Shown here one piece after another: positions 13,313 to 63,186 of a DNA stretch of 64,000 nt. The notes below the pieces were generated by a model. The model saw nothing but the letters and a program-made list of their open reading frames with translations. It was not told where the DNA came from and did not search any database. Each line of letters opens with the position of its first letter. Within the stretch, counting starts at the first letter, position 1. The stretch comes from an uncultured Desulfobacterales bacterium (GTDB lineage: Bacteria; Desulfobacterota; Desulfobacteria; Desulfobacterales; SpSt-501): positions 1 to 64,000 of the forward strand of contig CALIUY010000024.1 in the NCBI GenBank assembly GCA_938048455.1, read 5' to 3'. The position numbers and the translations under genes were made by a program.

Positions 13313-13350
13313 AGACGTGCCACCCTGTCGTGGAAAGGAAGCCTGCGGCC

Positions 13351-13890
13351 ATGCTGGAGCGAAACGACTGCCTGCTCGTGGTGATCGACCTGCAGGAGAG
13401 GCTTTTGCGCGCGATGCCCGACCGGGAGGTCCTGCTCGACCGCGCCCGACGGCTGATCGAAGGAGCGCGGGCGCTCGGCCTTCCCGTGCTCGCCACCGAG
13501 CAGAACCCCCAAGGGCTCGGCTCTACAGTGCCGGAGATCGCCCGCCGGCTCGAGGGGCTGCGGCCGATCCCGAAAACGAGCTTCGGCTGCCTCGGCTGCG
13601 CCGCTTTCGGCGATCTTCTGCGTCAGAGCGGACGCCGCAGTGTGCTCCTCTGCGGGATCGAAGCCCACGTCTGCATCTACCAGACCGCCTGCGAACTTCG
13701 CGCCGCGGGTTTCCATGTGGAAATCGTCGTCGACGCCTGCTCCTCGCGCAACCCCGCGGACAAGGCGGTCGGCCTCGAAAAAGCGCGCGACGCCGGGGCA
13801 CACCTCACCAGCGTGGAAACGGCCCTCTTCGAACTGCTGCGCGCGGCCGAAGGGCCGGTCTTCAAGGAAATCGCCCGGATCGTCAAATGA
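13351..13890 (+). CDS. isochorismatase-family cysteine hydrolase
   Basis: 179 residues from the ATG at 13351, with AAAGGAAG upstream; a GTG at 13330 is possible. The alpha/beta hydrolase fold has the catalytic Asp in VVIDLQERL, Lys in KTSFG and the nucleophile Cys in GIEAHVCIYQTA, the normal isochorismatase-like/nicotinamidase triad. The sequence resembles the YcaC-type hydrolases of unknown substrate. Its stop codon overlaps the start of the HdrA-like gene (ATGA), so its translation is coupled to an electron-transfer operon, which is unusual company for a hydrolase. Confidence 0.88.
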   Translation: MLERNDCLLVVIDLQERLLRAMPDREVLLDRARRLIEGARALGLPVLATEQNPQGLGSTVPEIARRLEGLRPIPKTSFGCLGCAAFGDLLRQSGRRSVLLCGIEAHVCIYQTACELRAAGFHVEIVVDACSSRNPADKAVGLEKARDAGAHLTSVETALFELLRAAEGPVFKEIARIVK

Positions 13891-16577: not shown

Positions 16578-17795
16578 ATGAGCCCGACGGAAGATCTCCT
16601 GGACCCGCAAGCCTCCTGCCCGGCCGACTGGTCCTATTTTCAGGAAACCTGCATGACCTGCGGGATCTGTTCCTCCTCCTGCCCCGTCGCCGGGATCGAC
16701 GGCTTCGATCCGCGCAAAGTCGTGCGGCTCGCCGCGCTGGGTCGGATCGAGGCGCTCGTCGAAGCCCGCTGGCCCTGGATCTGCACCCTCTGCGGCAAAT
16801 GCGAAGCCCTCTGCCCCATGGGAGTGGAGATCGCCGATCTGCTGCGCCGCGTGCGTTCGCGGCGCGAACGCGACCGGGTGCCCGGCATCCTGCACCAGGG
16901 CCTTGCCGCCGCGCTCGAAACCGGCAACAACCTGCGGCTCCCCCGCGAGGACTACCTTTTCATCCTCGAGGACGTCGCCTCCGAAATCCGGGAGGAGGCA
17001 GGCTACGAGAATTTCGAGGTCGCCGTCGACCGCAAAGGGGCGCGCCTGCTCACCACGATTCACAACAAACTCGTCAACACCCACACCGAAGACCTCAAAC
17101 ACTGGTGGAAGATCTTCCATGCGGCGGGCGAACGCTGGACGGTCTCTTCGGAGAACTGGGAGGGAACGAGCTGGGGTTACTTCACCGGCGACGACGAGGC
17201 GATGAAGGTCATGGCGGGGCGGATCCTCCGGCGGATGGAGGAGCTGGAGATCGACACCTTGCTGTGGCCCGAATGAGGGCATGCCTATCTTGCGACCCGG
17301 TCCGGGTTCGAACGGCACTACCCCGAAGCGCTCCGGCGTTTCCGCTTCGTCACGGTCTTCGACCTCCTGGTCGAATACCTGCGCGAGGGCCGCATCCGCC
17401 TGGACTCCTCACGCTTCCGCCGGCGCGTCACCTACCATGACCCCTGCAATTACGGCCGCAGGGCGGAGCGACGCTTCGGACACGGATTTTTCGAAGAGCC
17501 CCGCTGGATCCTCGGGCAATGTGTCCCCGAGTGGGTGGACCTCTACCCCAACCGCACCTTCCAGGTCTGCTGCGGCGGAGGCGGCGGAACCCTGGTGACG
17601 GGGTACAACGAGGAACGCCTCCACTACGGGCGCCGCAAGATGGAGCAGATCCGGGCCACGGGCGCCGAAACGATCGTCGTCCCCTGCCACAGCTGCCACG
17701 CCCAGCTCGAAAGCCTCCGGGACGCATACGGTATGCCCGGGCTGGAAGTGAAATACCTCTGGGAGCTGGTCGCGGATCTGATCGTTCTCCCCTGA
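16578..17795 (+). CDS. selenocysteine-containing HdrC-HdrB fusion (UGA at 17274)
   Basis: 405 residues if UGA at 17274-17276 is read as selenocysteine (Sec233). AAAGGAAG precedes the ATG. The N-terminus is an HdrC-type dicluster ferredoxin (C25/C28/C31/C35 and C69/C72/C75/C79). The C-terminus is an HdrB/HdrD-type CCG domain: PE-Sec-GHAY, DPC290NYGRR, C331C332GGGGG and C370HSC373. The frame continues cleanly after UGA for 172 codons with all downstream family motifs, and the CCG protein BamD in this same window has Cys at the equivalent site (SPHCYH). A SECIS-like hairpin follows the UGA. A gene caller would stop at 17276 and lose the catalytic half. CCG domains bind the noncubane cluster that reduces disulfides or a linked acceptor; the acceptor here is unknown. 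It ends 4 bp before the convergent MFS gene. Confidence 0.88.
17293..17310 (+). promoter_or_regulatory. bacterial SECIS-like hairpin after the HdrCB UGA
   Basis: CGA-CCC, loop GGUCC, GGG, a bulged U, then UCG. The loop starts with GGUC, as in the well-known E. coli fdhF SECIS (loop AGGUCU). Its GGU lies at positions 26-28 counting U of UGA as 1, near the fdhF spacing of 22-24. The folding was judged by eye only. Confidence 0.6.
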
Positions 17796-59420: not shown

Positions 59421-60575
59421 CTAGAGGGCTTCGGCCGCCAGCTCCGTCAGGTCCCGGATCTCGATCTTCTCCGCGAGCCCCGTGTTCAGGCGGCTGTCCT
59501 CGAAATTGGCGATGCAATACGGGCAGCAGGTGACCAAAACGCCCGCGCCGGCCTCGATCGCCTGCGCAAGCCGCAGATCGGAAAAGCGCTCCCCCCGCGG
59601 CGTCTCCATCCAGATCCGCCCGCCGCCGCCGCCGCAGCAAAGGCTGTCGGCACGCGATTCGGGCAGTTCGACCGTCGTGACGCCGGGGAGGCGCCGGAGC
59701 ACCTCCCGCGGCGCCTCGTAAAGTCCATTGTGCCGTCCGAGGTAGCAGGGGTCGTGGAAGGCGACCGTCTGGGCGCGGCCGTTGGCGAAGGTCAGGCGCC
59801 CCGACACCAGCAGCCGGGCCAGAAGCTCGGCGATATGGATCACCTCGAAGGCGACGCGAAACTCGGCGTACTCGTTTTTGAAGGTGTGATAGCAGTGGGG
59901 AGAGGAGACCAGGATTTTTTTCACCCCGCGGTCGACGAAGGCCTTGATGTTTTCCCGCGCCAGGCGCTTGAAGACCTCCTCGTCGCCCGCCTTGCGGATA
60001 CTCTCCCCGCAGCAGTTCTCCTGCTCCCCCAGGATCCCGAAATCGACCCCCGCCCGCAGAAGCAACCGCGCCGTGGCTCGGGAGACCTTTTTGAGCCGGG
60101 GGTCGTAGCAGAGGTAGCAGCCGGGAAAATAGAGATATTCGGTTCCCTCGGTGAAGGAGGGAACCCCGAGGCCGTCGGCCCAGGCGGCCCGCTTGCCTCG
60201 CGGCTCGTTCAGGGGGTTTCCCTCGGCCATCAGGCTGCCGCGCACCCCCCGGATCGGGCGGGCCGTGGAGGGAAAGACCCCGTACTCGGTGGCGATGCGC
60301 CGCAGCGCCGTGCCGGAATCGATCTGTCGCACGTCCCGCGGGCATTGCTGGGGGCAGCGGCCGCAGGTCGTGCAGCGCCAGAGGTCCTCGCTTTCGATGT
60401 CGGTGAGACCGAAGGCGGCCTCGCGTACGATACGCCGCATGCTGAATTGCCGGAACCGATTCCACGGGCAGACCACGTCGCACAGCCCGCACTGGAAGCA
60501 GCGCTTGAAGGCCTCGCCCCCGTGGGTGCGGATGAGCTCGACGATTTCTTGGTAATCGGCCAGATTGTCCGCCAT
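59421..60575 (-). CDS. bamD: BamD-like HdrD-type CCG iron-sulfur protein
   Basis: 384 residues from the ATG at 60575. N-terminal dicluster ferredoxin motif (CFQCGLCDVVCP, CTTCGRCPQQCP) followed by two CCG domains: PGCYLCYDP..NCCGES and SPHCYH..HDPCYLGRHNG..CCGGGGGRI..CCPYC. It is the HdrBC-like part of the class II benzoyl-CoA reductase complex and gives a Cys reference for the Sec position of the HdrCB fusion at 17274. Lies 20 bp after bamC. Confidence 0.92.
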   Translation of the reverse strand: MADNLADYQEIVELIRTHGGEAFKRCFQCGLCDVVCPWNRFRQFSMRRIVREAAFGLTDIESEDLWRCTTCGRCPQQCPRDVRQIDSGTALRRIATEYGVFPSTARPIRGVRGSLMAEGNPLNEPRGKRAAWADGLGVPSFTEGTEYLYFPGCYLCYDPRLKKVSRATARLLLRAGVDFGILGEQENCCGESIRKAGDEEVFKRLARENIKAFVDRGVKKILVSSPHCYHTFKNEYAEFRVAFEVIHIAELLARLLVSGRLTFANGRAQTVAFHDPCYLGRHNGLYEAPREVLRRLPGVTTVELPESRADSLCCGGGGGRIWMETPRGERFSDLRLAQAIEAGAGVLVTCCPYCIANFEDSRLNTGLAEKIEIRDLTELAAEAL

Positions 60576-60595
60576 GCGCCTCGAGCCTCTTGAGC

Positions 60596-61156
60596 TTAGG
60601 GCTTTTTCGCCGCCGACATCCGCGTGACGGCCTCCAAGAGCTGATCCATGCCGAACCTGTCGGCCAGCGCCTCGAGGCCGACCTCGAGCTCCTGCGCAGG
60701 CGCGGGTTCTTCCTCGACTTCCTCCTCGCGTTCCTCGTAGGTGAGGGCATCGGTGATGCACCACTGGACGCACATCGGCTCCTGAAGCTGGGGGTCATCC
60801 TGGCACATATCGCACTTGAGAGGAAGCTTCGAGTCGGGCTCTTTGAAGAGGTCCCGCGAGGGGCAGGAGGCGCGGCAGAAGCCGCACTCGTCGTACTGCT
60901 TGCCCTCGATCGTGTAGCGGTCCCGGCCGCAGCACTCGGCCGGCGCGTAATCGCCGGCATAGACCGGCACGTAGAGATCCCGCAGAGGGTCGAAGAGCAC
61001 ACGTACGCGCGATCGCGCGGGGTTGTTGCTGGCATACCGCGGCCGGGCATGAAAGGTCGAGCAGGCCATCTCGCAGGCCCGACAGCCGTTGCACTTGTCG
61101 ACATCGATGCGGATGGTCTTGACGACCTTTTTCTTTTTGGGGGTTTCGGCCTTCAC
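60596..61156 (-). CDS. bamC: BamC-like ferredoxin subunit
   Basis: 186 residues with several Cys quartets (CNGCRACEMACSTFH, CCGRDR, CGFCRASCP, CDMCQDDPQLQEPMCVQWC) and an acidic C-terminal extension. It forms the BamBC core of the class II benzoyl-CoA reductase, transferring electrons to the tungsten site of BamB. 38 bp after bamB. Confidence 0.93.
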   Translation of the reverse strand: MKAETPKKKKVVKTIRIDVDKCNGCRACEMACSTFHARPRYASNNPARSRVRVLFDPLRDLYVPVYAGDYAPAECCGRDRYTIEGKQYDECGFCRASCPSRDLFKEPDSKLPLKCDMCQDDPQLQEPMCVQWCITDALTYEEREEEVEEEPAPAQELEVGLEALADRFGMDQLLEAVTRMSAAKKP

Positions 61157-61194: not shown

Positions 61195-63186
61195 TCAGGC
61201 TTCGACGGCGGCCGGAGCTTCCTCCCGCAGGACCTTCCGCCGGATCAACTCCTCGGCCACATCGCCCAGCTCAAGGCGCTCGAGGGTTTCGCGCGTCGGC
61301 ACCCCCTCGGCGTTCCAGCCCTTGTAGCGATAATAAGTTTCGAGCAGCCGCGCCTCGAGCTCGGGGAAGCGTTTTTTCCAGTGATCCTCCGGGGGCTTCT
61401 CATCCCGGCGCCGCAGCCCGAGCCGGTTGTTGACGGCCCGGACCAGCGTGCGGTTGCGGTTGGCCGCCCGCCACAGCGTCTCCTCGTCGTAATCGATTCC
61501 CGTCGCCGCGGAGACCAGCGGCGGCAGGTTGTGGATGTGGTACGGGGGTTTGATCGGAAAAGAAGAAAGTCCCGCGCAGATGCCGAGCGCGTCGTCGAGG
61601 TAATGCATCATCTCCTGCCACTCGACGAGTTCGCAGGTCACCTCCGGCGGTGGGTAATGGGGAAAGGCGCGCTCCCCGCGCGGCTCCCAGTTGAGGAAAT
61701 ACTCCTTGAAGCGCTCGTGAGGGACCTGGATCCAGTCGCGCACGAACTCCTCGCGCTCCTCGCGGGTCTCGAAGGGCATCTGGGGCATCTGCCCTTCGAT
61801 CTGGGTGATGTTGATCTTCTCGCCCGTCGCATACATGATGAAGTAAATGGGATTGAGCATGCCGAGCTTGATCGGGATCTGCTCGTGCTTTTTGATCGTG
61901 TTGTGGTCGAAGGCCTCCGCCCCCCGGCCGATGCGCCGCGCGGCCCAATAGACCCCGTCGGCCAGCACCTCGCCGATACCCTCCCGGCGTGCGATCCGGT
62001 CAAGCAGCCAGAAGAACTTCTCCTCGTGGTTCTCGGGCATTCCTTCCACATCCGCCGGGGTCAGGATGCCGGCCTCCAGCAGCTCCATGGCGAAAGCCAT
62101 CACCTGCGGCGTGGTGTAAGCGTCGACGCCGTATTCCTGAGCGCGTCCGGCGATGCGGAATCCGAAATCGAGATCGTCGACCATGGCCCCCATGACGTAG
62201 GTGAGCTTGGAGTAGCATTTCATCATGTACTTCGAGATCCCGAGGGCCGGAAACCGCACGATCGCCCCACACTTCAGCGGGCAGTTGTAACAAGAGATGA
62301 GCCGTTCGATGGCCTGCTCCTGACTGCGGCGCCAGCGCTCCTCGTTTTCCCGGGTCCAAAAATCCTTGCGGCGATGACGCGCATTTCCCCAGGCGAAGTT
62401 GGTGGTGTGCCACTCCTCGTCGTGGATGGCCATTTCCTGGGGCGAGCCGATCCCCGCCAGAATGGCCGGCACCCCCTTGACGGGATTGTCCCGGCGCCAT
62501 TGGATGTAACGCAAGACTTCGCGGCACAGCTCCATGAACTCCGCCGGCCGCGCCACCGGCAGATCCCGGGTCCCGCGCACGGCGATCGCCTTGAGATTTT
62601 TGCTCCCCATGACCGCCCCCAGGCCGCCGCGGCTGGCGCTGGAGCGGGCATGCTCGATGGAGGCGAAATAGACACGGTTTTCGCCGGCGAGTCCGATCGC
62701 CGCCACCTGCAGGTTCGGGTCCTTCAGCTCGCTTTTGATGCTCTCGGCGGTCTCGATCGCCCCCTTGCCCGCAAGATGACGGGCGTCACGGATCTCGATG
62801 CGGTCGTTGTGGATCAAGAGATAGACGAGCTCGGGAGCGCGGCCGCGGAACACGATCTTGTCGTAGCCCGCGTATTTCAGCTCCGGGGCGAAGAACCCGC
62901 CCATCATGGAATAGGCCATGAGGCGGGTTTGGGGCGAAACGGCGGACACGATGGTGCGGTTGGCCCCGGTCGCCGGGGTGCCGCCGAGAAGCCCGGCGCT
63001 GAAGATGAGCACGCTCTCCGGAGAAAGCGGATCGTTTTCCGGCGGCATCCGCTCCCAGAGAATGCGCGCGTTGGTCCCGAGCCCGCCCAGGTGAAGCTCG
63101 GTCAGGCGCGGATCGGTCTCGACCCGCTCGATGTTGCCCCGCGAAAGATCAACCTCGAGCTGGAATCCGGTCTCGGCATAACGCAT
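61195..63186 (-). CDS. bamB: class II benzoyl-CoA reductase, tungsten subunit BamB
   Basis: 663 residues of the AOR family: MRYAETGFQLEVDLSRGNIERVETD, GGLGTNARILWERMP, SSASRGGLGAVMGSKNLKAIAVRG, C-x2-C-x3-C cluster region (SCYNCPLKCG) and DALGICAGLS near the C-terminus. The active site contains a tungstopterin that reduces the aromatic ring of benzoyl-CoA to cyclohexa-1,5-diene-1-carbonyl-CoA without ATP. The operon order bamB-C-D-E-F and absence of class I subunits support the assignment over a generic aldehyde oxidoreductase. Confidence 0.93.
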   Translation of the reverse strand: MRYAETGFQLEVDLSRGNIERVETDPRLTELHLGGLGTNARILWERMPPENDPLSPESVLIFSAGLLGGTPATGANRTIVSAVSPQTRLMAYSMMGGFFAPELKYAGYDKIVFRGRAPELVYLLIHNDRIEIRDARHLAGKGAIETAESIKSELKDPNLQVAAIGLAGENRVYFASIEHARSSASRGGLGAVMGSKNLKAIAVRGTRDLPVARPAEFMELCREVLRYIQWRRDNPVKGVPAILAGIGSPQEMAIHDEEWHTTNFAWGNARHRRKDFWTRENEERWRRSQEQAIERLISCYNCPLKCGAIVRFPALGISKYMMKCYSKLTYVMGAMVDDLDFGFRIAGRAQEYGVDAYTTPQVMAFAMELLEAGILTPADVEGMPENHEEKFFWLLDRIARREGIGEVLADGVYWAARRIGRGAEAFDHNTIKKHEQIPIKLGMLNPIYFIMYATGEKINITQIEGQMPQMPFETREEREEFVRDWIQVPHERFKEYFLNWEPRGERAFPHYPPPEVTCELVEWQEMMHYLDDALGICAGLSSFPIKPPYHIHNLPPLVSAATGIDYDEETLWRAANRNRTLVRAVNNRLGLRRRDEKPPEDHWKKRFPELEARLLETYYRYKGWNAEGVPTRETLERLELGDVAEELIRRKVLREEAPAAVEA

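Follow-up and report, generated by a model that had tools for sequence, protein, structure and literature searches.

A UGA codon almost certainly read as selenocysteine in an HdrD-type iron–sulfur protein of an uncultured Desulfobacterales bacterium

In a 64,000-nucleotide stretch of DNA from an uncultured Desulfobacterales bacterium (the window), the reading frame of an HdrC–HdrB fusion protein contains a TGA codon. The question raised is whether this codon ends the protein or is read as selenocysteine (Sec) and, if it is read, what a Sec residue might do in an iron–sulfur subunit of this kind. The frame was translated through the TGA, which was its sole interruption; 172 codons lie beyond it, and the next in-frame stop is the TGA at 17793-17795. 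A first-pass annotation made from the sequence alone had described an in-frame UGA at residue 233 of a 405-residue protein, in the context PE-Sec-GHAY and with all downstream motifs retained. The translation agreed with this description in full, Cys290, Cys331-Cys332, Cys370 and Cys373 being encoded past the UGA. Annotating the codon as a stop would cut the subunit short after residue 232 in many genomes of Desulfobacterales. The features of the locus are listed in Table 1.

Table 1. Coordinates of the features in the window
Feature	Position	Strand	Basis
Isochorismatase-fold hydrolase	13330..13890	+	PF00857 1.3e-31; ATGA overlap with the HdrA half downstream
HdrA N-terminal-half FAD protein, 367 aa	13887..14990	+	HdrA2 8e-51; relatives in 29/37 long loci
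HdrA C-terminal-half / MvhD (FlpD) protein, QmoB-like, 529 aa	14987..16576	+	HdrA2 3.2e-43, FlpD 2.4e-24
Sec-containing HdrD-type gene (HdrC–HdrB fusion), 405 residues, U at 233	16578..17795	+	Read-through translation, Pfam, orthologues
HdrC-type region, two [4Fe-4S] motifs (Cys25/28/31/35, Cys69/72/75/79)	16647..16826	+	Invariant columns, Pfam Fer4_8
Sec233 codon UGA, motif WPE-U-GHAY	17274..17276	+	TGA in 93/93 distinct orthologous sequences
bSECIS-like hairpin, apex GGUC	17293..17310	+	22-23 nt past UGA; -8.1 kcal/mol; family test; compensatory pairs
C-terminal CCG domain, noncubane [4Fe-4S] ligands Cys290, 331, 332, 370, 373	17427..17708	+	Pfam CCG 6.7e-13

Orthologues were searched for in two sets, consisting of 58 related genomes and of 80 loci from a public genome collection. 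They were present in 26 of the 58 genomes (45-100% identity), each with one TGA, and a codon census over both sets gave 107 TGA and six TGC. At ~45% identity or more, every distinct orthologous sequence had TGA at the Sec233 codon (Table 1). A phylum-wide search (296 genomes) yielded additional TGA orthologues and some with Cys. The aligned codon was TGA, TGC or TGT in every homologue read, so that the comparison at residue 233 proposed with the annotation returned just Sec or Cys codons. For the close pairs in which it was computable, dN/dS was 0.09-0.24 before the TGA and 0.13-0.28 after it; purifying selection acts on the sequence beyond the UGA at about the same strength as on the upstream part.

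The source genome was also inspected for the Sec machinery, as the annotation had suggested. The selA, selB and selD genes were all found above curated cut-offs, as was tRNA-Sec (selC, 76.1 bits); within the 64-kb window, ARAGORN found no tRNA. The selD gene (G000:C9:11255-12181, L011) carries an in-frame TGA of its own, which makes SelD itself probably a selenoprotein.

UGA does end genes of this genome in the ordinary way: the neighbouring genes stop at TGA (14990 and 16576), as does the gene itself (17795). A true stop at 17274 would give a 232-residue HdrC-like product, with the remainder a decaying remnant. This is highly improbable: the UGA is fixed in the 93 distinct sequences, the 172 later codons are under purifying selection with all of the ligands kept, homologues have Cys and no other residues at the position, and the Sec machinery is in the genome. 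In a draft genome of 64 contigs the codon might also result from faulty sequencing or assembly, or UGA might stand for some other amino acid; this is even less credible, as the same UGA occurs across many genera and families in genomes independent of one another, the flanking genes stop at TGA and homologues have Cys. Conservation across genomes excludes both explanations in practice, and there can be very little doubt that UGA 17274 is decoded as Sec by the cell.

The region following the UGA was examined against the published bSECIS model, which specifies a loop of 3-9 nt, a stem of 4-16 bp and a G in the first two loop positions, together with a spacing of 16-37 nt and an MFE at or below -7.5 (PMC13188914). 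The hairpin at 17293-17310, which the annotation had also noted, has a GTC (or GGTCC) loop and a 4+3 bp stem and, with the spacing and energy given in Table 1, lies within these limits. As a null, sequences were recoded synonymously using the codon usage of each locus. On its own the hairpin of the window counts as weak evidence, as ~7.5% of the recodings reach an equal stem length. Over the family, in which two registers occur (loop GGUC or loop GGUCN), stems of at least 4 bp were found in 93 of 93 sequences (33% expected from recoding) and stems of at least 5 bp in 74 of 93 (9% expected). The mean local MFE was -8.8, compared with -4.7 in the recodings, and was below the sequence's own null mean in 92 of 93 cases. 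In nine first-register hairpins two pairs covary (C-G to U-A and A-U to C-G) and 45 of 45 cells pair; shifted versions of this alignment came nowhere close to the true register. The nine were picked by eye for diversity, and the compensatory pairs are therefore support and not proof. Across the whole family the evidence for the hairpin is strong. It is absent from five Cys orthologues (L173-L177). A sixth, L172 (G275:C51:16702-17847), keeps a strong stem whose apex is UUCUU and not GG, apparently left over from an ancestor with Sec. An Rfam search of the whole 64-kb window gave no match.

The order of motifs in the product, two [4Fe-4S] motifs followed by a CCG domain of the form CX(n)CCGX(n)CXXC, is that of an HdrD-type protein. 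Pfam matches to Fer4_8 and CCG support the HdrC–HdrB fusion of the annotation, and the HdrC-type region matches HdrC of solved Hdr complexes. The five Cys residues of the C-terminal CCG domain occupy invariant columns and align with the ligands of EtfD and HdrB. A second five-Cys CCG motif was not found in the N-terminal domain, and Pfam CCG matched once. The UGA had been assigned to the first Cys position of the CCG domain; it does lie at a Cys site of such a domain, but the site is the leading Cys of the CxxC that closes the N-terminal CCG domain and not the first Cys of the domain. Sec233 is the only ligand left there.

A structure model was calculated with AlphaFold2 from 40 sequences, with Cys substituted for Sec and no cofactors (mean pLDDT 89.7, pTM 0.88). 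The closest structure was EtfD (Z 25.7, 361 residues aligned, rmsd 3.0); HdrB chains gave Z 18.9-20.0 and rmsd 2.6-2.9. Using the HdrB part alone as the query, phmmer returned no match at E 0.1, whereas profile alignment did match. In the profile alignment to EtfD, U233 falls on Cys581, His235 on His583 and Ala236 on Cys584, and Cys290/331/332/370/373 fall on the five noncubane ligands. In EtfD, Cys581 and Cys584 are ligands of a linear [3Fe-4S] cluster, and the noncubane cluster is completed by His583 (PMC13083937). As U233 and Ala236 occupy the positions of the [3Fe-4S] ligands, the first cluster has been lost, with Sec233 remaining in place. Sec233 would thus stand two residues from His235, a likely ligand of the noncubane cluster, and the structural and profile alignments are in keeping with the earlier proposal that the Sec lies beside the noncubane-cluster site. 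The UGA almost certainly encodes a Sec at the active site of an iron–sulfur electron-transfer protein.

The resemblance to EtfD also gives rise to the main rival explanation for the function. The EtfD authors consider its His-ligated noncubane cluster to be non-catalytic (PMC13083937), and since His235 corresponds to that His it counts against a catalytic reading. The protein might be an electron conduit like mycobacterial EtfD, in which the His-ligated noncubane cluster only relays electrons to a partner while Sec233 adjusts the potential or ligates iron, with no disulfide as substrate. In favour of this, EtfD is the closest solved structure, with its cluster ligand His583 at the place of His235 (PMC13083937); however, EtfD is membrane-bound and has three more Cys residues for its first cluster, whereas the window protein keeps only Sec/Cys, and Sec is retained at a cost in many genera. 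The retention of Sec/Cys after loss of the first cluster, and of costly Sec across genera, suggests a chemical role, and we regard a pure conduit as unlikely.

The gene neighbourhood was compared in 37 long loci. A relative of the HdrA/MvhD protein is encoded 5′ of the Sec gene in all of them, and a relative of the HdrA half in 29, some of the loci being cut short; the orientation of both is constant. The two HdrA genes of the window are joined by an ATGA overlap. The conserved unit, a putative operon judging by gene order, is split HdrA, HdrA/MvhD and Sec-HdrD without hydrogenase, and Sec-HdrD is very probably a subunit of an HdrA-type complex. The description of the operon as Qmo-like holds for the HdrA-like and QmoB-like subunits; the term is loose, as there is no QmoC membrane subunit. 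The QmoC model gave 50.9 bits with the third gene of the window (cut-off 300), and a true qmoC with 474.9 bits lies elsewhere in the source genome. Like QmoABC, the unit has an HdrA-type FAD protein followed by an HdrA/MvhD protein; unlike QmoABC, its third subunit is a soluble Sec-HdrD and not a QmoC with a cytochrome b-type membrane domain.

A conserved fourth gene was sought in the 37 loci, and just a PocR-sensor-like gene was found upstream in 13 of them. It lies directly 5′ of the HdrA half (e.g. L104:2422-3042, the locus in which the domain was checked) and might regulate the operon. At this place the window instead has the isochorismatase-fold gene, which is probably cotranscribed with the three-gene unit; a shared function is only putative. 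No conserved electron-donor gene adjoins the unit in the loci compared. Outside the window clade the partners vary. In L118 (Desulfogranum marinum) the order is D-HdrA-MvhD-VhuG-VhuA, the Sec protein being 53% identical with UGA at the same codon, and in L122 Sec-HdrD follows HdrA and two sulfhydrogenase beta/gamma-related proteins, a Flx-like set. In L122 (2737-5993) and L110 (1764-5895) Sec-HdrD is found behind Flx-like or second HdrA genes and not behind hydrogenase, from which electron donors seem to vary among lineages. It seems, then, that various electron inputs are served by Sec-HdrD as a module in the place of HdrBC.

On the most probable account, the protein is a selenoprotein and would be a terminal HdrCB-type subunit in which Sec works together with a noncubane cluster; that orthologues stand in for HdrBC in HdrA-MvhD-VhuGA and Flx-like operons supports it. 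SelB and tRNA-Sec would read UGA 17274 as Sec, aided by the hairpin, and the HdrD-like product would form a soluble complex with the FAD-HdrA half and the HdrA/MvhD half. FAD or the MvhD [2Fe-2S] region might be the point of entry for electrons, which would pass over the two HdrC cubane clusters to the single noncubane [4Fe-4S] cluster of the C-terminal CCG domain, presumably in that direction. This cluster would be held by its five Cys ligands and probably also by His235. Sec233, in the cluster-less N-terminal CCG domain, should point into the noncubane site, where the selenolate and a cluster iron could jointly split a disulfide or trisulfide substrate. In place of the second noncubane cluster that HdrB has, Sec233 would bind one half of the substrate as a selenosulfide, the other half going to the remaining cluster.

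Disulfide-type chemistry at the Sec is favoured by a small margin only. Within a soluble FAD-Hdr complex the protein most likely acts as the terminal (poly/di)sulfide reductase, and the likeliest substrate in a sulfate reducer would be oxidized DsrC or a small thiol disulfide. The source genome encodes a DsrC that has both C-terminal Cys residues, as well as the true qmoC away from the window gene, and published work cited in PMC10553843 treats DsrC as a partner of Flx-Hdr complexes; DsrC is thus a plausible, if tentative, substrate. More specifically, the protein might be a one-cluster heterodisulfide-type reductase in which Sec233 either does duty for the second of HdrB's noncubane clusters or is bound through selenium to the remaining one, selenolate and cluster together cutting one disulfide or trisulfide; we hold this to be possible but rather doubtful. 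Should it apply, Desulfobacterales would have, in the split-HdrA/QmoB-like/Sec-HdrD unit, a branch-point enzyme not described before. What a selenolate does next to a noncubane cluster can be tested directly in this family, given the natural Sec/Cys pairs, the loss of the first CCG cluster and the conserved His close by.

The Sec family itself is already on record (2006-2009). It was reported as a GlpC selenoprotein with the operon glpC-hdrA-frhD-frhG-frhA (PMC1794560, 2006) and has been tabulated as 'Fe-S oxidoreductase-like', PTHR43551, with the motif UGH (PMC13188914 Table 1, 2026). The window protein resembles this 'Fe-S oxidoreductase (GlpC)' family of Deltaproteobacteria, having U-G-H in a CCG iron–sulfur protein, and the order in L118 is that of the published operon; the window clade differs in lacking hydrogenase genes and in having HdrA split into two short proteins. 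In PMC2702500 (2009), HdrD4 of Desulfobacterium autotrophicum HRM2 is an HdrC–HdrB fusion with selenocysteine, a likeness by description rather than alignment to the protein found here in another sulfate reducer; HdrF2 of the same organism also belongs with the closest known systems and is membrane-bound, unlike the window protein. With the UGH GlpC family and HdrD4 in print, the 'new chemical setting' claimed in the first-pass annotation is unsupported. In the open-access literature no description was found of the split-HdrA three-gene unit without hydrogenase or of Sec as the remnant of a lost cluster, no paper on a Qmo/HdrD selenocysteine operon beyond those cited, and no biochemistry of the Sec-HdrD subfamily; as the search was limited to open-access papers, such absence is weak evidence.

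Among other known systems, methanogen HdrABC-MvhAGD (5ODC) shares the HdrB fold (Z 18.9), the HdrC ferredoxin part, the C-terminal CCG ligands and the HdrA/MvhD partners. Its HdrB has two noncubane clusters and the system uses two chains, whereas the window protein has one cluster site plus Sec in one chain. The best whole-chain match, Mycobacterium smegmatis EtfD (9OJN, PMC13083937), has the same noncubane ligands and His; it carries a linear [3Fe-4S] cluster and a membrane domain, whereas the window protein has only Sec233 at that site. GlpC of anaerobic glycerol-3-phosphate dehydrogenase was rejected as an identity (TIGR03379 32 bits, cut-off 279.9). The best NCBIfam matches were DsrK, HmcF and TmcB (E 8e-41 to 1e-52), with scores of 140, 180 and 168 bits that are far below the curated cut-offs of 400, 750 and 735, respectively. 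The partners of these three proteins are membrane complexes.

A tree of 89 proteins required seven changes between Sec and Cys labels; BamD could not be used as the root owing to its long branch. The window protein falls inside a well supported clade of 30 rows (99/99) that contains Sec members alone. Deeper in the family Sec and Cys occur together, which means that the residue was exchanged repeatedly, and from this interchange Sec seems dispensable for the fold. L041, L042 and L178-L182 form a Cys-only clade with the motif PDCGGGS, in which the adjacent His is lost and the cluster environment may therefore differ.

Cys paralogues in the source genome carry an ECGH motif. A second Sec-type HdrD paralogue is also present (G000:C54:17310-18437, L144:9212-10543; 35% identity, NTE-U-GHELF), with its own hairpin past the UGA; its UGA clade is widespread in the phylum. 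It was rejected as a member of the published operon, its neighbours being a Zn-dehydrogenase-like gene and a molybdopterin oxidoreductase, with no frh genes. In the window itself, the BamD-like protein (59421-60773, - strand) has Cys at the position aligned with Sec233 (SPHCYH), as the annotation had stated. Together with an aldehyde-ferredoxin-oxidoreductase (BamB-like) gene at 61195-63186 (- strand), it points to a class II benzoyl-CoA reductase cluster.
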